Source: Flavobacterium limnosediminis JC2902
GTDB taxonomy: Bacteria > Bacteroidota > Bacteroidia > Flavobacteriales > Flavobacteriaceae
DNA: 64,000 bases
Assembly (NCBI RefSeq): GCF_000498535.1
Contig: NZ_AVGG01000007.1
Span: forward strand, 310,001-374,000
Reading direction: 5' to 3'
Translations under genes and position numbers: made by a program
Shown: positions 23,463-29,509 of the stretch, in pieces
Layout: each line of letters starts with the position of its first letter
Position numbering within the stretch: position 1 is the stretch's first letter
The notes under the pieces: model-generated
Told to the model about the DNA's origin: nothing
The model's database searches: none
Seen by the model: only the letters and a program-made list of their open reading frames with translations

Positions 23463-23507
23463 AGTAACAAAAGTTACTTAACAAGGCTTTTCAAAATCTT
23501 ATATTTG
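23463..23507 (+). promoter_or_regulatory. FNR-like dyad and -7 element upstream of the Crp/Fnr gene
   Basis: AGTAACAAAAGTTACT (23463-23478) is a perfect six-four-six dyad of the Crp/Fnr kind. TATATTTG at 23500-23507 is a good -7 element. The dyad centre is about 29.5 bases before the -7 start, which places it near -41 from the expected transcript start, the class II activator position. The same core occurs before the 25005 gene. Confidence 0.65.
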
Positions 23508-23521
23508 TAAAAAAACATGAT

Positions 23522-24154
23522 ATGTATCAGTTATTAAAAGAATCGTACTCCTATTTATTCGAAGATGAATTGCTAAAGGAAATCGCTTCTGTGGGTATTC
23601 ACCGTAAATTTCGTCAGGATGAAATTCTGATTGAGATTGGCGAACAGATAAAATTTATGCCGATACTCTTAAACGGAGCCATAAAAATTCTGCGCGAAGA
23701 TGAAAACGGCGATGAATTGCTCCTGTACTTTTTGGAACGCGGGGATACTTGTGCCATGACTTTAACCTGTTGCCTCGGAAAAAACAAGAGCAAAATAATG
23801 GCAATTTCCGAAACCGACGGCGATTTAATCATGATTCCAATTGAAAAAATGGAAGAATGGCTGGTAAAATACAAATCGTGGCGTAATTTTGTCTTCGAAA
23901 GTTACAATGTACGCCTGCTTGAAATGCTGGAGGCTATTGATACTTTGGCTTTCATGAAGATGGATGAGCGCCTGTACAAATACCTTACCGACAAGGCAAA
24001 GGTTTTAGGCACTTCGGAAATTGCCAACACGCATCAGGAAATTGCAACAGACATGCACACTTCCCGCGTAGTAATTTCCCGTTTGTTAAAAAGCCTGGAA
24101 CTGGAAGGAAAAATAAAACTGAACCGCAATAAAATAGAAATACTGCAATTTTAA
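23522..24154 (+). CDS. Crp/Fnr family transcriptional regulator
   Basis: 210 residues: an N-terminal cyclic-nucleotide-type beta barrel (about 15-120) and a C-terminal winged helix with the recognition region HQEIATDMHTSRVVISRLLKSLE. There is no FNR-type four-cysteine cluster at the N-terminus, but GDTCAMTLTCCLG has three close cysteines (C77, C83, C84) in the barrel, a possible thiol or persulfide sensor. Its stop overlaps the start of the TSUP gene (TAATG), and a CstB-like gene follows, so it most likely controls sulfide handling. A dyad lies in its own promoter, which suggests autoregulation. Confidence 0.88.
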   Translation: MYQLLKESYSYLFEDELLKEIASVGIHRKFRQDEILIEIGEQIKFMPILLNGAIKILREDENGDELLLYFLERGDTCAMTLTCCLGKNKSKIMAISETDGDLIMIPIEKMEEWLVKYKSWRNFVFESYNVRLLEMLEAIDTLAFMKMDERLYKYLTDKAKVLGTSEIANTHQEIATDMHTSRVVISRLLKSLELEGKIKLNRNKIEILQF

Positions 24155-24945
24155 TGGAAATAATAGGTTACATCGGTGCTTTACTGATAGGACTAATACT
24201 CGGACTCACCGGTGGAGGCGGCTCCATACTCACGGTTCCGATTTTGGTTTACATTTTAAGCTACAGCCCGATTACAGCAACAGCTTATTCATTGTTTATC
24301 GTAGGAACAACCTCGGCGTTTGGTGCCACACAAAATTTTTTTAAGGGTTTTGTGGATATCAAAAAAGGATTCCTTTTTGCCATCCCATCCTTTACAGCAG
24401 TTTACTTAACCCGACGCTTTCTGGTTCCGCAACTGCCCGATACCATTTTCTCTTTTTCAGATTTCAGCTTAAGCAAAGAAGCCTTTTTAATGCTGTTTTT
24501 TGCCGTCATCATGTTTTTTGCATCCTTATCCATGCTGAGAAAAAAGAAATTAAATGACTTTGAAAACACTAAAGAAGAATCAAAATTGCTTTTTATCGCA
24601 CAAACGTTCAGCGTTGGAATTTTAATCGGACTGGTAGGGGCTGGTGGTGGCTTCCTAATCATTCCTTCATTGGTGTTTTTCGGAAAACTACCCATGCGAA
24701 ATGCGGTTGCCACTTCCCTGTTCATTATTGCCCTGAATTCCCTGATCGGATTTATCGGAGACATACAGACACTGGAAATTGACTGGCGCTTTCTGATCAG
24801 TTTCACTTCATTATCCGTTATCGGTATTTTTATCGGAATATATCTTAATAAGTTCTTAAATGAAGCGCAACTTAAAAAAGGGTTTGGTTACTTTGTATTA
24901 CTGATGGCACTCTTTATCTTATCTAAAGAATTTCTCAAACTGTAA
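24154..24945 (+). CDS. TSUP (TauE/SafE) family membrane transporter
   Basis: 263 residues with about eight membrane segments in two similar halves, each with the glycine-rich family motif: GLTGGGGSILTVPIL (near 20) and GLVGAGGGFLIIPSLV (near 165). TSUP carriers move sulfite, thiosulfate or sulfur-containing organic anions across the inner membrane. Overlap with the regulator gene by one base and the neighbouring persulfide dioxygenase point to export of sulfite or a related sulfur anion. Confidence 0.88.
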   Translation: MEIIGYIGALLIGLILGLTGGGGSILTVPILVYILSYSPITATAYSLFIVGTTSAFGATQNFFKGFVDIKKGFLFAIPSFTAVYLTRRFLVPQLPDTIFSFSDFSLSKEAFLMLFFAVIMFFASLSMLRKKKLNDFENTKEESKLLFIAQTFSVGILIGLVGAGGGFLIIPSLVFFGKLPMRNAVATSLFIIALNSLIGFIGDIQTLEIDWRFLISFTSLSVIGIFIGIYLNKFLNEAQLKKGFGYFVLLMALFILSKEFLKL

Positions 24946-24984
24946 CCAATGTTACTCTTATTTTTAAATATTGAATTACCTTTA
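24942..24984 (+). promoter_or_regulatory. Second FNR-like dyad before the CstB-like gene
   Basis: GTAACCAATGTTAC (24942-24955) repeats the GTAAC-N4-GTTAC core of the site at 23463. TACCTTTA at 24977-24984 is a near-match to the -7 element, starting about 28 bases after the dyad centre, the same geometry as at the regulator promoter. The dyad overlaps the end of the TSUP gene. Confidence 0.6.
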
Positions 24985-25004
24985 CACAAAATTAGAATAC
25001 TGAT

Positions 25005-26420
25005 ATGAAAATAGAACAAATTTATACCGGATGTATTGCTCATGCAGCGTATTATATTGAAAATAATGGTGAAGCCGCTATTTTTGATCCGCTTCGTGAA
25101 GTACAATCATATATCGATAAAGCGGCAAAAGACAATGCAAAAATCAAATACATTTTTGAAACGCATTTCCACGCCGATTTCGTCTCTGGTCATTTAGATT
25201 TAGCAAATAAAACAGGTGCTCAGATTGTATACGGTCCGACCGCAAAACCAAGTTTCGAAGCCATCATAGCCGAAGACAACCAGGAATTTAAAATCGGAAA
25301 TTACACGATCAAAGCCCTTCATACACCGGGTCATACACTGGAAAGCACCACATACCTTTTAATTGACGAAAACGATATCCAACGCGGAATCATCACCGGA
25401 GACACTTTATTTATAGGTGATGTGGGAAGACCTGATTTGGCTCAGAAACTCGTAACCGATTTAACTCAGGAAAAACTGGCCGGAATGTTATTCGATTCGC
25501 TTCGCAACAAAATCATGCCGTTGTCGGACGATCTTATCGTGTATCCAAATCACGGTGCCGGTAGTGCCTGCGGAAAAAACATGAGTAAAGAAACCACAGA
25601 TACTTTAGGAAACCAGAAAAAAGTAAACTATGCTTTGCGTGCCGACATGACCAAAGAAGAGTTTACCAAGGAATTACTGGAAGGCCTTAGTGCACCTCCA
25701 GCCTATTTCCCTCAAAACGTTTTAATGAATATTCAGGGATATGACAGCTTAGAAACCATCATGACCAAAGCCAATACCGCTTTAGAGCCCGCTGCATTTG
25801 AAACAGTAGCAAATCAATCGGAGGCTTTAATTCTGGATGTGCGCCACGAAAATGATTTCGTTAAAGAACACGTTCCTAATTCCATATTTATTGGGTTACA
25901 CGGAAACTTTGCCCCATGGGTTGGCGCTTTGATTATGGACGTTAAACAACCTATTTTATTAATTGCACCGGAAGGGAAAGAAGAAGAAGCTATTACCCGT
26001 TTAGCACGTGTAGGCTTCGATAATTGTCTTGGATACCTGAAAGGTGGACTGGAATCATGGAAAGCAGCAGGTTTTGAAACTGATAGCATTGCTTCGATTT
26101 CTCCCGAACAATTCGCTACGGAAAAAGATCAAACAAAACATCCGATTATCGATTCAAGAAAACCGGGAGAATACATGGCTGAACACGTTGAGAATGCAGT
26201 AAATATTCCATTGGATTTTGTAAACAGTCATCTTTCCGAAGTACCTAAAACAGAAGAATTCTATCTGCACTGTGCCGGTGGATACCGTTCTGTAATTATG
26301 GCTTCCATCCTGAAATCACGTGGTTTTCACAATATGATTAATGTGGAAAAAGGAATCAGCGGAATTCGTAATGCCGGAGTACCGTTAACGCAATTTGTAT
26401 GTCCTTCCACCCTGAAATAA
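25005..26420 (+). CDS. CstB-like persulfide dioxygenase-rhodanese fusion
   Basis: 471 residues: a metallo-beta-lactamase domain (1-240) with the ETHFHADFVSGH metal motif, HTPGHT, and the NHGAGS region; a first rhodanese domain (about 255-355) that lacks the active cysteine (LIAPEGKEEE in its place); and a second rhodanese domain with the active loop HCAGGYRS (C423). This order of dioxygenase, inactive rhodanese and active rhodanese is that of staphylococcal CstB, which converts persulfides to thiosulfate. The gene has its own promoter dyad but also follows the TSUP gene closely. Confidence 0.88.
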   Translation: MKIEQIYTGCIAHAAYYIENNGEAAIFDPLREVQSYIDKAAKDNAKIKYIFETHFHADFVSGHLDLANKTGAQIVYGPTAKPSFEAIIAEDNQEFKIGNYTIKALHTPGHTLESTTYLLIDENDIQRGIITGDTLFIGDVGRPDLAQKLVTDLTQEKLAGMLFDSLRNKIMPLSDDLIVYPNHGAGSACGKNMSKETTDTLGNQKKVNYALRADMTKEEFTKELLEGLSAPPAYFPQNVLMNIQGYDSLETIMTKANTALEPAAFETVANQSEALILDVRHENDFVKEHVPNSIFIGLHGNFAPWVGALIMDVKQPILLIAPEGKEEEAITRLARVGFDNCLGYLKGGLESWKAAGFETDSIASISPEQFATEKDQTKHPIIDSRKPGEYMAEHVENAVNIPLDFVNSHLSEVPKTEEFYLHCAGGYRSVIMASILKSRGFHNMINVEKGISGIRNAGVPLTQFVCPSTLK

Positions 26421-26611: not shown

Positions 26612-27739
26612 ATGACCAAAAAACTTCTTTTATTAGCCGGATTATCCATCTTAGCCTCATGCAATAAAATTGGAGACAACGAATACCTGATTACCGGTAA
26701 AGCTGAAGGTATCGAAAACGGAAAAATGGCAATATTACAGGTTCAGAATGAAATGGGTCCTGTTTCAAAAGACACTGTAAAAATTGAAAACGGAAAATTC
26801 GAATTCAAAGGTGAATTTACCGAAGGACCTGAAATCGGCTTCATCATGGTTGAAAGCATAAACAACGGCATGGTACCTTTCATCCTTGAAAACGGGGAAA
26901 TAAACATCACTGTAGATAAAGATACTATCCAGAAATCCAAAATCAGCGGCACCAACAACAACGATAAATTCCAGGAATACAACGACGGTTCAAGCGTTAT
27001 CTACAAAAAAATGATTGCTTTCCAAAAAAGTAACCAACAAAAATTTATTGACGCAAGAAAAGCAAATGACACTGCGGTAATGAATTCACTTACCAAACAA
27101 AACATGGTTTTTCAGAAAGACATGGATAAGTTTTCCGAAACTTTTGCTGAAAAAAACCCAACAATATTCCTTTCTTCACTTTTATTGGAAAACTTTATCG
27201 GAAGACAAACTTTAGAGGCTGATAAAATTGTAAAATTATACAATGCTTTATCATCAGATATCAAAAAAACAAAAAGCGGTATTCGCGTAAGTGAGTTTGT
27301 AAACAGCCAGAAAGCAGTGAATACAGGTAATACTGCTCCAAACTTTTCAGCGCCGAATCCGGAAGGAAAAATGGTTTCGTTAAAAGAATCATTAGGAAAA
27401 GTAACCATTATTGATTTTTGGGCTTCATGGTGCGGACCTTGTCGTGCTGAAAACCCGAATGTAGTTGCATTATACAATGAGTTTCATGCAAAAGGATTAA
27501 ACATCATTGGCGTTTCATTAGATAAAGATGCCGATAAATGGAAAGATGCTATCGCAAAAGACAAATTAGCCTGGACACAGGTTTCCAATTTGAAATTTTG
27601 GGAAGATCCGATCGCGAAGCAGTACAACGTAAAATCAATTCCGGCAACTTTTATTCTTGATGCTTCGGGTAAAATCGTTGGAAAAGACTTAAAAGGTGCT
27701 GAATTAAAAGCAAAAATCGCAGAGTTATTAGCTAAATAA
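26612..27739 (+). CDS. DUF4369-TlpA-like thioredoxin lipoprotein
   Basis: 375 residues. A lipoprotein signal (lipobox LASC, C16 or near) is followed by a DUF4369 domain (about 25-125, LITGKAEGIENGKMAILQV), a helical linker, and a thioredoxin-like AhpC/TSA domain (about 240-375) with the redox motif ASWCGPCRAENP. Such proteins act as thiol-disulfide reductases in the periplasm of Bacteroidota. It has its own promoter and a terminator at 27764, so it is separate from the sulfide operon. Confidence 0.87.
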   Translation: MTKKLLLLAGLSILASCNKIGDNEYLITGKAEGIENGKMAILQVQNEMGPVSKDTVKIENGKFEFKGEFTEGPEIGFIMVESINNGMVPFILENGEINITVDKDTIQKSKISGTNNNDKFQEYNDGSSVIYKKMIAFQKSNQQKFIDARKANDTAVMNSLTKQNMVFQKDMDKFSETFAEKNPTIFLSSLLLENFIGRQTLEADKIVKLYNALSSDIKKTKSGIRVSEFVNSQKAVNTGNTAPNFSAPNPEGKMVSLKESLGKVTIIDFWASWCGPCRAENPNVVALYNEFHAKGLNIIGVSLDKDADKWKDAIAKDKLAWTQVSNLKFWEDPIAKQYNVKSIPATFILDASGKIVGKDLKGAELKAKIAELLAK

Positions 27740-27914: not shown

Positions 27915-27996
27915 GGGGAGATACTCAAGCGGCCAACGAGGGCGGACTGTAAATCCGCTGATTACATCTTCGCAGGTTCGAATCCTGCTCTCCCCA
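27915..27996 (+). tRNA. tRNA-Tyr (anticodon GUA)
   Basis: The acceptor stem GGGGAGA pairs with TCTCCCC, the anticodon stem GCGGA/TCCGC encloses the GTA anticodon (27949-27951), a long variable arm marks a class II tRNA, and the T arm carries GGTTCGAATCC. CCA is not encoded (ACA follows). A tyrosine integrase lies 270 bases downstream in the same direction, so the 3' end of this gene is the likely attachment site of the mobile element. Confidence 0.95.
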
Positions 27997-28020
27997 CAAA
28001 TAAAAAAACAAACGGTATCA

Positions 28021-28055
28021 AAACCCAGTAAATCTTATGATTTTACTGGGTTTTT
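28021..28055 (+). terminator. Terminator after tRNA-Tyr
   Basis: AAACCCAGTAAA pairs with TTTTACTGGGTTT around a short loop, followed by T5. It would end the tRNA transcript; depending on the exact crossover point it belongs to the element. Confidence 0.85.
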
Positions 28056-28110
28056 GCTTTTTAGGTACTTTCAAAATATTCATTCAATCTTAAATCTTAA
28101 GGGGAAAAAT

Positions 28111-28145
28111 CGAGACCCTTAAAAATTCTCAGATTTAGGGTCTCG
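28111..28145. repeat. Nine-base inverted repeat between tRNA and integrase
   Basis: CGAGACCCT (28111-28119) and AGGGTCTCG (28137-28145) are perfectly inverted around 17 bases. It lies in the 274-base gap before the integrase, where arm-type binding sites of an integrase or a regulatory site would be expected. No gene is seen in this gap. Confidence 0.55.
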
Positions 28146-28270
28146 CTAAATTCACTTAAGCCTTACAAACACTGTACTATCAGCCTGTTCACTATTCGGT
28201 TCAAATGATGTACATCTTGTTTGTTATTACTCAGAAATTTAAATTGAATAATAATTAAAAGGTTACCATT

Positions 28271-29509
28271 ATGAAAACAAAAATCACTCTTCATTTTTAT
28301 GCTAAAAGCACAAAAGTGAATGCTAACGGCAAATTACCAATTTATGTTCGACTAACTGTAAATGGCCAACGACTGGAATTTAGTTCTAAAAAATTCATAG
28401 AAAAAACGAAATGGTCATCTGAACTAGCTAAAATGAAAGGTAATACAGAAGAAGCTCGTTCAATCAATAGTTACCTTGATATGATGAGATCTAAGGTTTT
28501 GAGTGCAGAAATGGAATTACTACATAAAGAAGAGGAATTATCCATCGAAAATTTTCAATCGATACTACTTGAGAAAAATAAGAATCATAGAATGTTGATA
28601 CCGGTCTTTCAAGATCATAATAATAAAATGAAAGAGCTTTTAGGTAAGAAATATGCTCCAGGAACATTACAGCGCTTTGAGGTTACTTTAAATCATATTC
28701 AGAACTTTCTTCAATGGAAATTCAATGCCACGGATATTAGAATTGATAAAATAGACCATTGCTTCATTACTGAACTTGAATTCTATTTAAGAAGCGTAAA
28801 AAACTGCAGTAATAATACATCCGTGAAGTATGTTCGTAATTTCAGAAAAATTATAAAAATCTGTTTAAATAATGATTGGTTAGAAAAGAATCCTTTTAGC
28901 AGATATGAAGGAAAAGTTATTGAAGTTGATAAAGAGTTTCTGACCGAAGAAGAGATACAAAAAATCTACACTAAAAAGTTCCCTAATACTCGTCTGGAAT
29001 TAGTAAAGGATATATTTATTTTCTGTTGTTTTACCGGCTTGGCATATATCGATGTGCAACAATTACGAAAAGACCATTTGGGAATTGGCATCGATGGAAA
29101 TAAATGGATATTCAAAAACAGACAAAAAACAGATACTCGCTCTAAAATACCCTTACTCCCTATTGCGGAAGAATTGATAGAGAAGTATTCCGACCACCCG
29201 AAATGCATAAATGAGGACAGAATTCTGCCAGTATTGAGCAATCAGAAAATGAATAGCTATCTAAAAGAAATTGGAGACGTCTGCGGCATTCCAAAAGAAA
29301 TAACCTTCCATATGGCTAGACACTCTTTTGCAACCTCTGTAACACTTACTAATGGCGTGCCAATTGAAAGTGTAAGTAAAATGCTTGGTCATAAAAGTCT
29401 TAGAACTACTCAGCACTATGCTAAGATTGTAGACAAGAGAGTGAGCGATGATATGGCTATACTAAAGCAAAAATTATCAATACAAAATCTTCAAACCAAA
29501 CAAGCATAA
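28271..29509 (+). CDS. Tyrosine recombinase/integrase of the ICE
   Basis: 412 residues: an N-terminal Arm-type DNA-binding domain (1-90), a SAM-like core-binding domain (100-205) and the catalytic domain (220-400). Active residues are HMAR (H347, R350), GH (H374) and the nucleophile Y383, with the beta-strand lysine near K286. The first catalytic arginine is missing: TGLAYIDV has alanine (A258) where TGLR is usual, as in the IntDOT group of Bacteroides elements. It integrates and excises the element at tRNA-Tyr. Confidence 0.93.
   Translation: MKTKITLHFYAKSTKVNANGKLPIYVRLTVNGQRLEFSSKKFIEKTKWSSELAKMKGNTEEARSINSYLDMMRSKVLSAEMELLHKEEELSIENFQSILLEKNKNHRMLIPVFQDHNNKMKELLGKKYAPGTLQRFEVTLNHIQNFLQWKFNATDIRIDKIDHCFITELEFYLRSVKNCSNNTSVKYVRNFRKIIKICLNNDWLEKNPFSRYEGKVIEVDKEFLTEEEIQKIYTKKFPNTRLELVKDIFIFCCFTGLAYIDVQQLRKDHLGIGIDGNKWIFKNRQKTDTRSKIPLLPIAEELIEKYSDHPKCINEDRILPVLSNQKMNSYLKEIGDVCGIPKEITFHMARHSFATSVTLTNGVPIESVSKMLGHKSLRTTQHYAKIVDKRVSDDMAILKQKLSIQNLQTKQA

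Follow-up and report, generated by a model that had tools for sequence, protein, structure and literature searches.

Which protein controls the sulfide-detoxification genes between positions 23,463 and 26,420 of a 64,000-nucleotide stretch of the Flavobacterium limnosediminis JC2902 genome (contig NZ_AVGG01000007.1, positions 310,001 to 374,000; hereafter the window), and through which DNA site does it act? An earlier note, made from the letters of the window, proposed a Crp/Fnr regulon with a GTAAC-N4-GTTAC operator. Our analysis strongly supports a Crp/Fnr regulon for sulfide and persulfide detoxification, on the evidence of the dyads, their constant gap to the promoter, a covariation between the recognition helix and the operator, and persulfide dioxygenase (PDO) loci from control genomes chosen for their lack of a regulator match. 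Comparison of sequences also makes it a well-supported prediction that the regulator, a Crp/Fnr protein, activates sulfur-defence genes. The locus contains the following features.

23464..23477, + strand: predicted operator dyad GTAACAAAAGTTAC (GTAAC-N4-GTTAC) upstream of the regulator-tauE operon; the same dyad is found at orthologous clusters
23500..23507, + strand: -7-type promoter element TATATTTG (TAnnTTTG), after a gap of 22 bases from the first dyad
23522..24154, + strand: Crp/Fnr-family regulator of 210 amino acids (Pfam PF00027 and PF13545; alignments; AlphaFold model, pLDDT 90)
24154..24945, + strand: predicted TauE/SafE-family sulfite exporter (Pfam PF01925, E 6.4e-43)
24942..24955, + strand: predicted operator dyad GTAACCAATGTTAC upstream of the PDO gene; conserved at orthologous clusters
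24977..24984, + strand: -7-like element TACCTTTA, one letter off TAnnTTTG, after a gap of 21 bases from the second dyad
25005..26420, + strand: predicted CstB-like PDO (Pfam PF00753 and PF00581)

The two dyads have the same core, as the earlier note had reported, and they are the only perfect matches in the window. Their centres lie 29.5 bases upstream of TATATTTG and 28.5 bases upstream of TACCTTTA, which agrees with the 28 to 30 bases given there. The tauE start codon overlaps the regulator stop codon, and the tauE stop codon (TAA, 24943-24945) falls inside the second dyad. With at most one mismatch the window holds 6 dyad matches against 1.19 expected, a number that 0 of 100 shuffles reach. 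The scan of the genome that the note had suggested was less decisive. There are nine perfect dyads, compared with ten occurrences of the reversed control pattern, so the count is not enriched and is insufficient by itself as proof of a regulon; five of the nine sites are inside open reading frames (ORFs), and we dropped genome-wide counting as proof. The other four dyads precede genes, and a -7-like element lies 21-22 bases downstream of each. They stand before the regulator gene, the PDO gene, a gene for a small membrane protein with thioredoxin behind it, and a TolC-HlyD-AcrB efflux operon. Ahead of the efflux operon (L170:2-5396), the perfect dyad is 22 bases before TACATTTG; TolC-like genes in some other genomes are likewise found near regulators or dyads. 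A genome-wide count that does not exceed its control would be compatible with dyads that serve a different regulator or that arose as palindromes by chance. We regard this explanation as very improbable in view of the dyad density near the regulator, the fixed gap, the covariation with residue 183 and the 0 of 15 control PDO loci with a perfect dyad, all of which are described below.

Of 60 genomes, 47 have a match to the regulator at E up to 0.001, in some cases a weak one; matches also occur in 124 of 150 genomes of the genus (query from the Glu clade discussed below; E up to 1e-40). Both counts include the genome itself. Phylum-wide, 115 of 296 genomes have a match (E up to 1e-30). A scan of named genomes with three peptide patterns, one of them including C77, gave 585 confirmed loci, the best 80 of which (947,321 bases; the named loci) contain the perfect dyad 115 times. 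The 59 other half-site permutations occur 0.75 times on average and at most 5 times at the same loci, and the other spacer lengths from 0 to 11 occur 0-3 times each. This abundance near 80 orthologues strongly supports the operator that was originally proposed. At least one perfect dyad is present in 58 of the named loci.

The genes next to these dyads are mainly concerned with sulfur. The nearest gene encodes a PDO (29 dyads), TauE (29), a rhodanese (10), YeeE/YedE (7) or the regulator itself (6); minor nearest genes, with three occurrences or fewer, include SQR-like, peroxiredoxin-like and TolC-like genes named by eye, and Pfam places one SQR-like representative in the general pyridine nucleotide-disulphide oxidoreductase family. 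No gene start lies within 250 bases of 13 of the 115 dyads, and no dyad was assigned to the interior of a gene. Within 6 kb of the regulator, 56 of the named loci have a PDO, 57 have TauE and 47 have both, and 74 carry one or more genes from the set PDO, TauE, rhodanese, YeeE and SQR-like. At 70 loci from across the phylum, flanks of about 1.5-3 kb were compared at 1e-10 with eight sulfur-cluster queries that included thioredoxin and TolC, and 43 loci match at least one query. Crp/Fnr relatives sense redox state, oxygen and nitric oxide, and the regulator could conceivably mediate a general response of this kind with the sulfur genes as just one part of its regulon. The thioredoxin and RND efflux operons that also carry the site in this genome would fit such a role. 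It is disfavoured by the predominance of sulfur genes in both sets of loci, thioredoxin and TolC being counted in the phylum-wide one, and by the lack of FNR cluster cysteines, and we consider it unlikely.

Relatives of the regulator also occur on plasmids. Fourteen proteobacterial plasmid records matched it, and all four that were inspected retain C-x5-C and the Glu described below. The Ruegeria and Paracoccus relatives reside in Crp-DUF2892-YeeE-DUF6691-MBL clusters (MBL, metallo-beta-lactamase) with sulP close by. Between the Crp gene and DUF2892 they have a common GGGTGACAATATCACTGAAG-like stretch (L242, L246) with slightly different first letters, and its letters suggest a possible GTGAC-N3-ATCAC operator that is one base shorter than the Bacteroidota type. 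Two Bacteroidota plasmids were inspected, and the one from Spirosoma carries TauE-like, MBL and YeeE genes.

If the dyad serves this regulator, then PDO genes in genomes without it provide a natural control. Twenty-six of the 150 genus genomes have no regulator match at 1e-40, and 15 were taken among the 20 listed; 14 of these have a PDO, at 15 places. The perfect dyad is absent from all 15 PDO loci, and a loose match within 300 bases is found in 2. By comparison, a site is present in 18 of 28 regulator-bearing related loci with a PDO of >50% identity (6 perfect; Fisher p = 0.0017) and in 30 of 52 named loci (26 perfect; p = 0.003). Some of these controls are not strictly free of the regulator: a renewed search of 14 of the genomes found a broken regulator in G063, a good match elsewhere in G107, and weak matches (1e-10 to 1e-15) in G015, G100, G103 and G106.

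The dyads also keep a nearly fixed position. Orientation to a nearby gene was possible for 102 of the 115 dyads, and the other 13 were dropped. Within 60 bases of these dyads TAnnTTTG occurs 62 times, in 56 cases at a gap of exactly 22 bases downstream, and the shorter TAnnTT is found at this gap for 86 of the 102. A looser score again peaks at a gap of 22, in 123 of 181 site readings for regulators with Val183, in 75 of 86 for those with Glu, and in 18 of 35 readings at the distant loci L192-L241. With its centre 29.5 bases ahead of a -7 element, a dyad would sit at about -41.5, where class II activators bind. Judged from the -7 gaps, the sites hold the fixed distance of class II activators, and the earlier suggestion of a class II placement is strongly supported by the 56 of 62 occurrences. 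The same gap implies that the dyad would overlap the -33 region, where a bound repressor might block transcription until it is released by sulfide, as with CstR or BigR. CstR and SqrR/BigR do repress, according to the available part of PMC8148161. A repressor need not hold one position, however, and the peak at 22 recurs across many promoters and with both operator types. Crp/Fnr proteins at -41.5 are also classically activators. We rate repression as quite unlikely and predict with high confidence from the promoter geometry that the regulator activates transcription.

A further link between this protein and these sites is the covariation of residue 183 with the third base of the half-site. 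Val183 aligns with CRP residue Glu181 (as we take its numbering to be) and with a Val of NtcA in HMMER alignments. CRP uses TGTGA, and CAP Glu181 variants alter the preference at the corresponding base pair. We read sites upstream of PDO and tauE at loci L010-L169 with a search that ignored base 3, so neither outcome is favoured. For Val-type regulators, 92 of 99 scored sites have A in both half-sites (40 of 139 upstream regions have no good site). For Glu-type regulators, one G is present in 59 of 62 sites and two G's in 2 of 62 (8 of 70 regions have no good site). The full set of 229 regulators (L010-L169 and L172-L241, one duplicate excluded) consists of 144 with Val183 and 85 with Glu, and all have Arg182 and Arg187. 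An operator site was found at 179 of these loci. The base 3 pair in 168 Val-type sites is AA in 133, AT in 21, AG in 6, AC in 4, GG in 3 and TT in 1, and in 86 Glu-type sites it is AG in 67, GG in 17, AT in 1 and AA in 1.

This pattern is maintained when close relatives are removed. Among 94 proteins at <82% identity (28 Glu and 66 Val), a G-bearing site accompanies 28 of 28 Glu proteins, in every site for 26 of them, and 60 of the 66 Val proteins have no such site. On a quickly built tree from which the helix columns were excluded (of 91 inner branches, 22 are starred and 44 open), Val and Glu were exchanged four times, with a matching operator change in 3.9 of four independent pairs. From these sequences the recognition residue appears to predict the operator, with Val183 accompanying GTAAC and Glu accompanying G at base 3 in one or both half-sites. 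The Glu-type operators of L033-L038 and L120-L169 are nearly always mixed, with one GTGAY half and one GTAAC half, and several other families have GTGAY in both. The Glu-type operators emerged from direct reading of promoters; when 30 closely related Glu-type loci were scanned for palindromes, only chance and shared-coding ones came up.

The protein itself has a barrel like that of cyclic nucleotide-binding domains, with C77, C83 and C84, followed by a helix-turn-helix with R182-V183...R187. It belongs to the Crp/Fnr superfamily by PF00027 and PF13545 scores above cut-off and by its fold. An AlphaFold model from 54 sequences (mean pLDDT 90.1, pTM 0.81) has PDB 3dv8, CAP-DNA 1zrf and NtcA 3la7 as its best Foldseek matches. 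Narrower assignments were rejected. The score for strict CRP identity is 49.6 bits against a cut-off of 266, and the cyclic AMP (cAMP) cassette residues that we take to be Glu72 and Arg82 of CRP align with Met79 and Lys89; the NtcA model gives 49.1 bits against 244.95. FNR has four cysteines for its 4Fe-4S cluster, and only C77, C83 and C84 are present here.

Several known systems are nevertheless similar. The cyanobacterial nitrogen regulator NtcA shares the Crp/Fnr fold and has Val at the same recognition position (STRVTVTR), and its GTA-N8-TAC box, about 22 bases before the -10 element, has the same frame as GTAAC-N4-GTTAC. The operator is consequently not a new type, and the predicted mode of DNA recognition is similar to that of NtcA. 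NtcA differs in that it senses 2-oxoglutarate and controls nitrogen genes, and the regulator is far under the NtcA model cut-off. Escherichia coli CRP has the same fold and R-x4-R recognition helix, and its TGTGA resembles the GTGA of Glu-type relatives, but its cAMP cassette is not retained here. The best PDB match by both structure and sequence, the Eubacterium rectale Crp/Fnr protein 3dv8, has C-x5-C in the same place and a Glu-type recognition helix; we know of no described function for it. The PDO combines an MBL domain with a rhodanese region by Pfam, which is the CstB-like architecture, and it matches PDB 3tp9 and 3r2u (which we take to be CstB) nearly end to end. The Staphylococcus aureus cst operon, with CstR, CstB, TauE and SQR, has the same regulated function. 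FisR would also be comparable in activating sulfide-defence genes, but it is an ATP-hydrolysing protein of a different class. In the available part of PMC8148161, CstR is a CsoR-like repressor, unlike the Crp/Fnr protein described here, which is probably an activator; FisR hydrolyses ATP to activate RNA polymerase, and it is grouped with repressors elsewhere in that paper.

What signal the regulator might recognize is best approached through its cysteines. A residue count confirms the earlier observation of exactly three, C77, C83 and C84, and because there are no others, the FNR cluster cysteines outside the barrel are missing. All 229 relatives have C77, 198 have C83 and 132 have C84; among the Glu-type regulators of L010-L169, all 58 have C77 and C83 and one has C84. 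Eighty of the 229 come from the scan whose patterns included C77; it is also present in all 149 of the others. C77 is the sole cysteine in 20 relatives, several of which adjoin PDO or thioredoxin genes, and these 20 rule out a universal intramolecular dithiol. We rejected the idea that all three cysteines are essential on the same counts. In the aligned sequences the C77-C83 pair is widespread, not universal, and C77 alone is constant.

C77 aligns just before the former cAMP cassette. Proximity to this once phosphate-binding element, like the relatives with C77 alone, would also suit a sulfur-regulon activator that holds a small-molecule ligand in its barrel pocket, where Cys77 would be a binding residue and not a reactive sensor. 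Candidate ligands would be thiols or persulfides of low molecular weight, nucleotides, and sulfur metabolites (sulfite or thiosulfate, for example). Glutathione is an activator of both PrfA and Vfr in the accessible portion of PMC7315123. The retention of C83 in 198 of the 229 relatives fits thiol chemistry instead, and we hold the small-molecule alternative to be doubtful.

We infer the following mechanism. The regulator, a Crp/Fnr protein without a cAMP cassette, would bind GTAAC-N4-GTTAC as a dimer near -41 and exert class II activation on its own promoter, which serves the regulator-tauE operon, and on the PDO promoter. The thioredoxin and RND efflux operons in this genome are probably also targets. 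Recognition would occur through Arg182-Val183-Arg187, with Val183 favouring A at base 3 in both half-sites, and Glu relatives would take G there in one or both. The switch would most likely be a reaction of the invariant Cys77 with persulfide or polysulfide; in proteins that also have Cys83, the two residues could become joined as Cys-Sn-Cys. The dyad, its spacing, the neighbouring gene content and the residue-base covariation are seen directly, and they make it highly probable that the regulator binds these dyads and controls sulfur-defence genes, here and in many related bacteria. We think it reasonably likely that reactive sulfur is the signal, and we are evenly divided on whether C77 is the chemical sensor. 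The mechanism as a whole, from dimer on dyad through class II activation to a persulfide or polysulfide switch at Cys77, seems probable to us.

A number of observations weigh against it. No perfect dyad is found at 22 of the 80 named loci, no dyad at 50 of the 229 loci in the regions scanned, and none of the eight queries matches 27 of the 70 phylum-wide loci at 1e-10 in their flanks. The Thiothrix and Azospirillum plasmid relatives adjoin DUF2892 alone, and the neighbourhood on the Persicobacter plasmid has no TauE-like, MBL or YeeE genes. G107 has a good regulator match and yet a PDO without a dyad, which counts against a simple rule. Of the Val-type sites, 21 of 168 are AT, and six Val proteins (L091, L101, L112, L118, L188 and L190) have G in a site; a sign test on four switches cannot fall below p = 0.125. 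C83 and C84 are missing in many relatives, and a constant distance to the -7 element would likewise be expected of a repressor over the -33 region.

The region downstream of the PDO gene has further features. Directly 3' of it is a DUF4369/AhpC-TSA thioredoxin-like gene (26612-27739), and the window scan found no dyad upstream of this gene even with one mismatch allowed. A tRNA-Tyr gene (27915-27997) is followed about 270 bases further on by an ORF (28271-29509) that resembles a tyrosine recombinase by eye, and this juxtaposition (27915-29509) suggests an element integrated at the tRNA. The 3' end of the tRNA has no exact repeat of at least 16 bases elsewhere within the window.

In the accessible part of PMC6195638, persulfide sensing typically proceeds through repressors. 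The earlier list of known sulfide regulators (CsoR/CstR, BigR and FisR) was incomplete, as SqrR is also named among them in the part of PMC8148161 available to us. The portions available of PMC9774590, PMC8510549, PMC12040651, PMC12937710 and PMC8014003 contain no Crp/Fnr sulfide regulon. Searches of the literature on sulfide, persulfide and the operator found none described, within a coverage that mostly excludes subscription literature and with queries some of which probably missed the spelling "Crp/Fnr". In the sources consulted, this regulator class is absent from the sulfide sensors apart from an Acinetobacter Crp-like protein that is persulfidated with an effect not known (PMC7315123, in part).

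If our interpretation is true, then Bacteroidota would possess a defined system that governs their response to sulfide and persulfide stress. A broader proposal, for which we see the chances as equal either way, concerns a Bacteroidota-wide Crp/Fnr subfamily that reaches into Pseudomonadota. Its members would be class II activators dedicated to the response to reactive sulfur, with a single invariant cysteine in an abandoned cAMP pocket as the sensor. Their DNA specificity would have changed on four or more occasions through one Glu/Val exchange at the CRP-181 position, and the operators would have followed. Four separate natural switches with matching operators would be a clean case of a transcription factor and its sites changing together, and one that is directly testable by one-residue swaps. 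The invariant cysteine, for its part, reduces the question of sensing to one residue.

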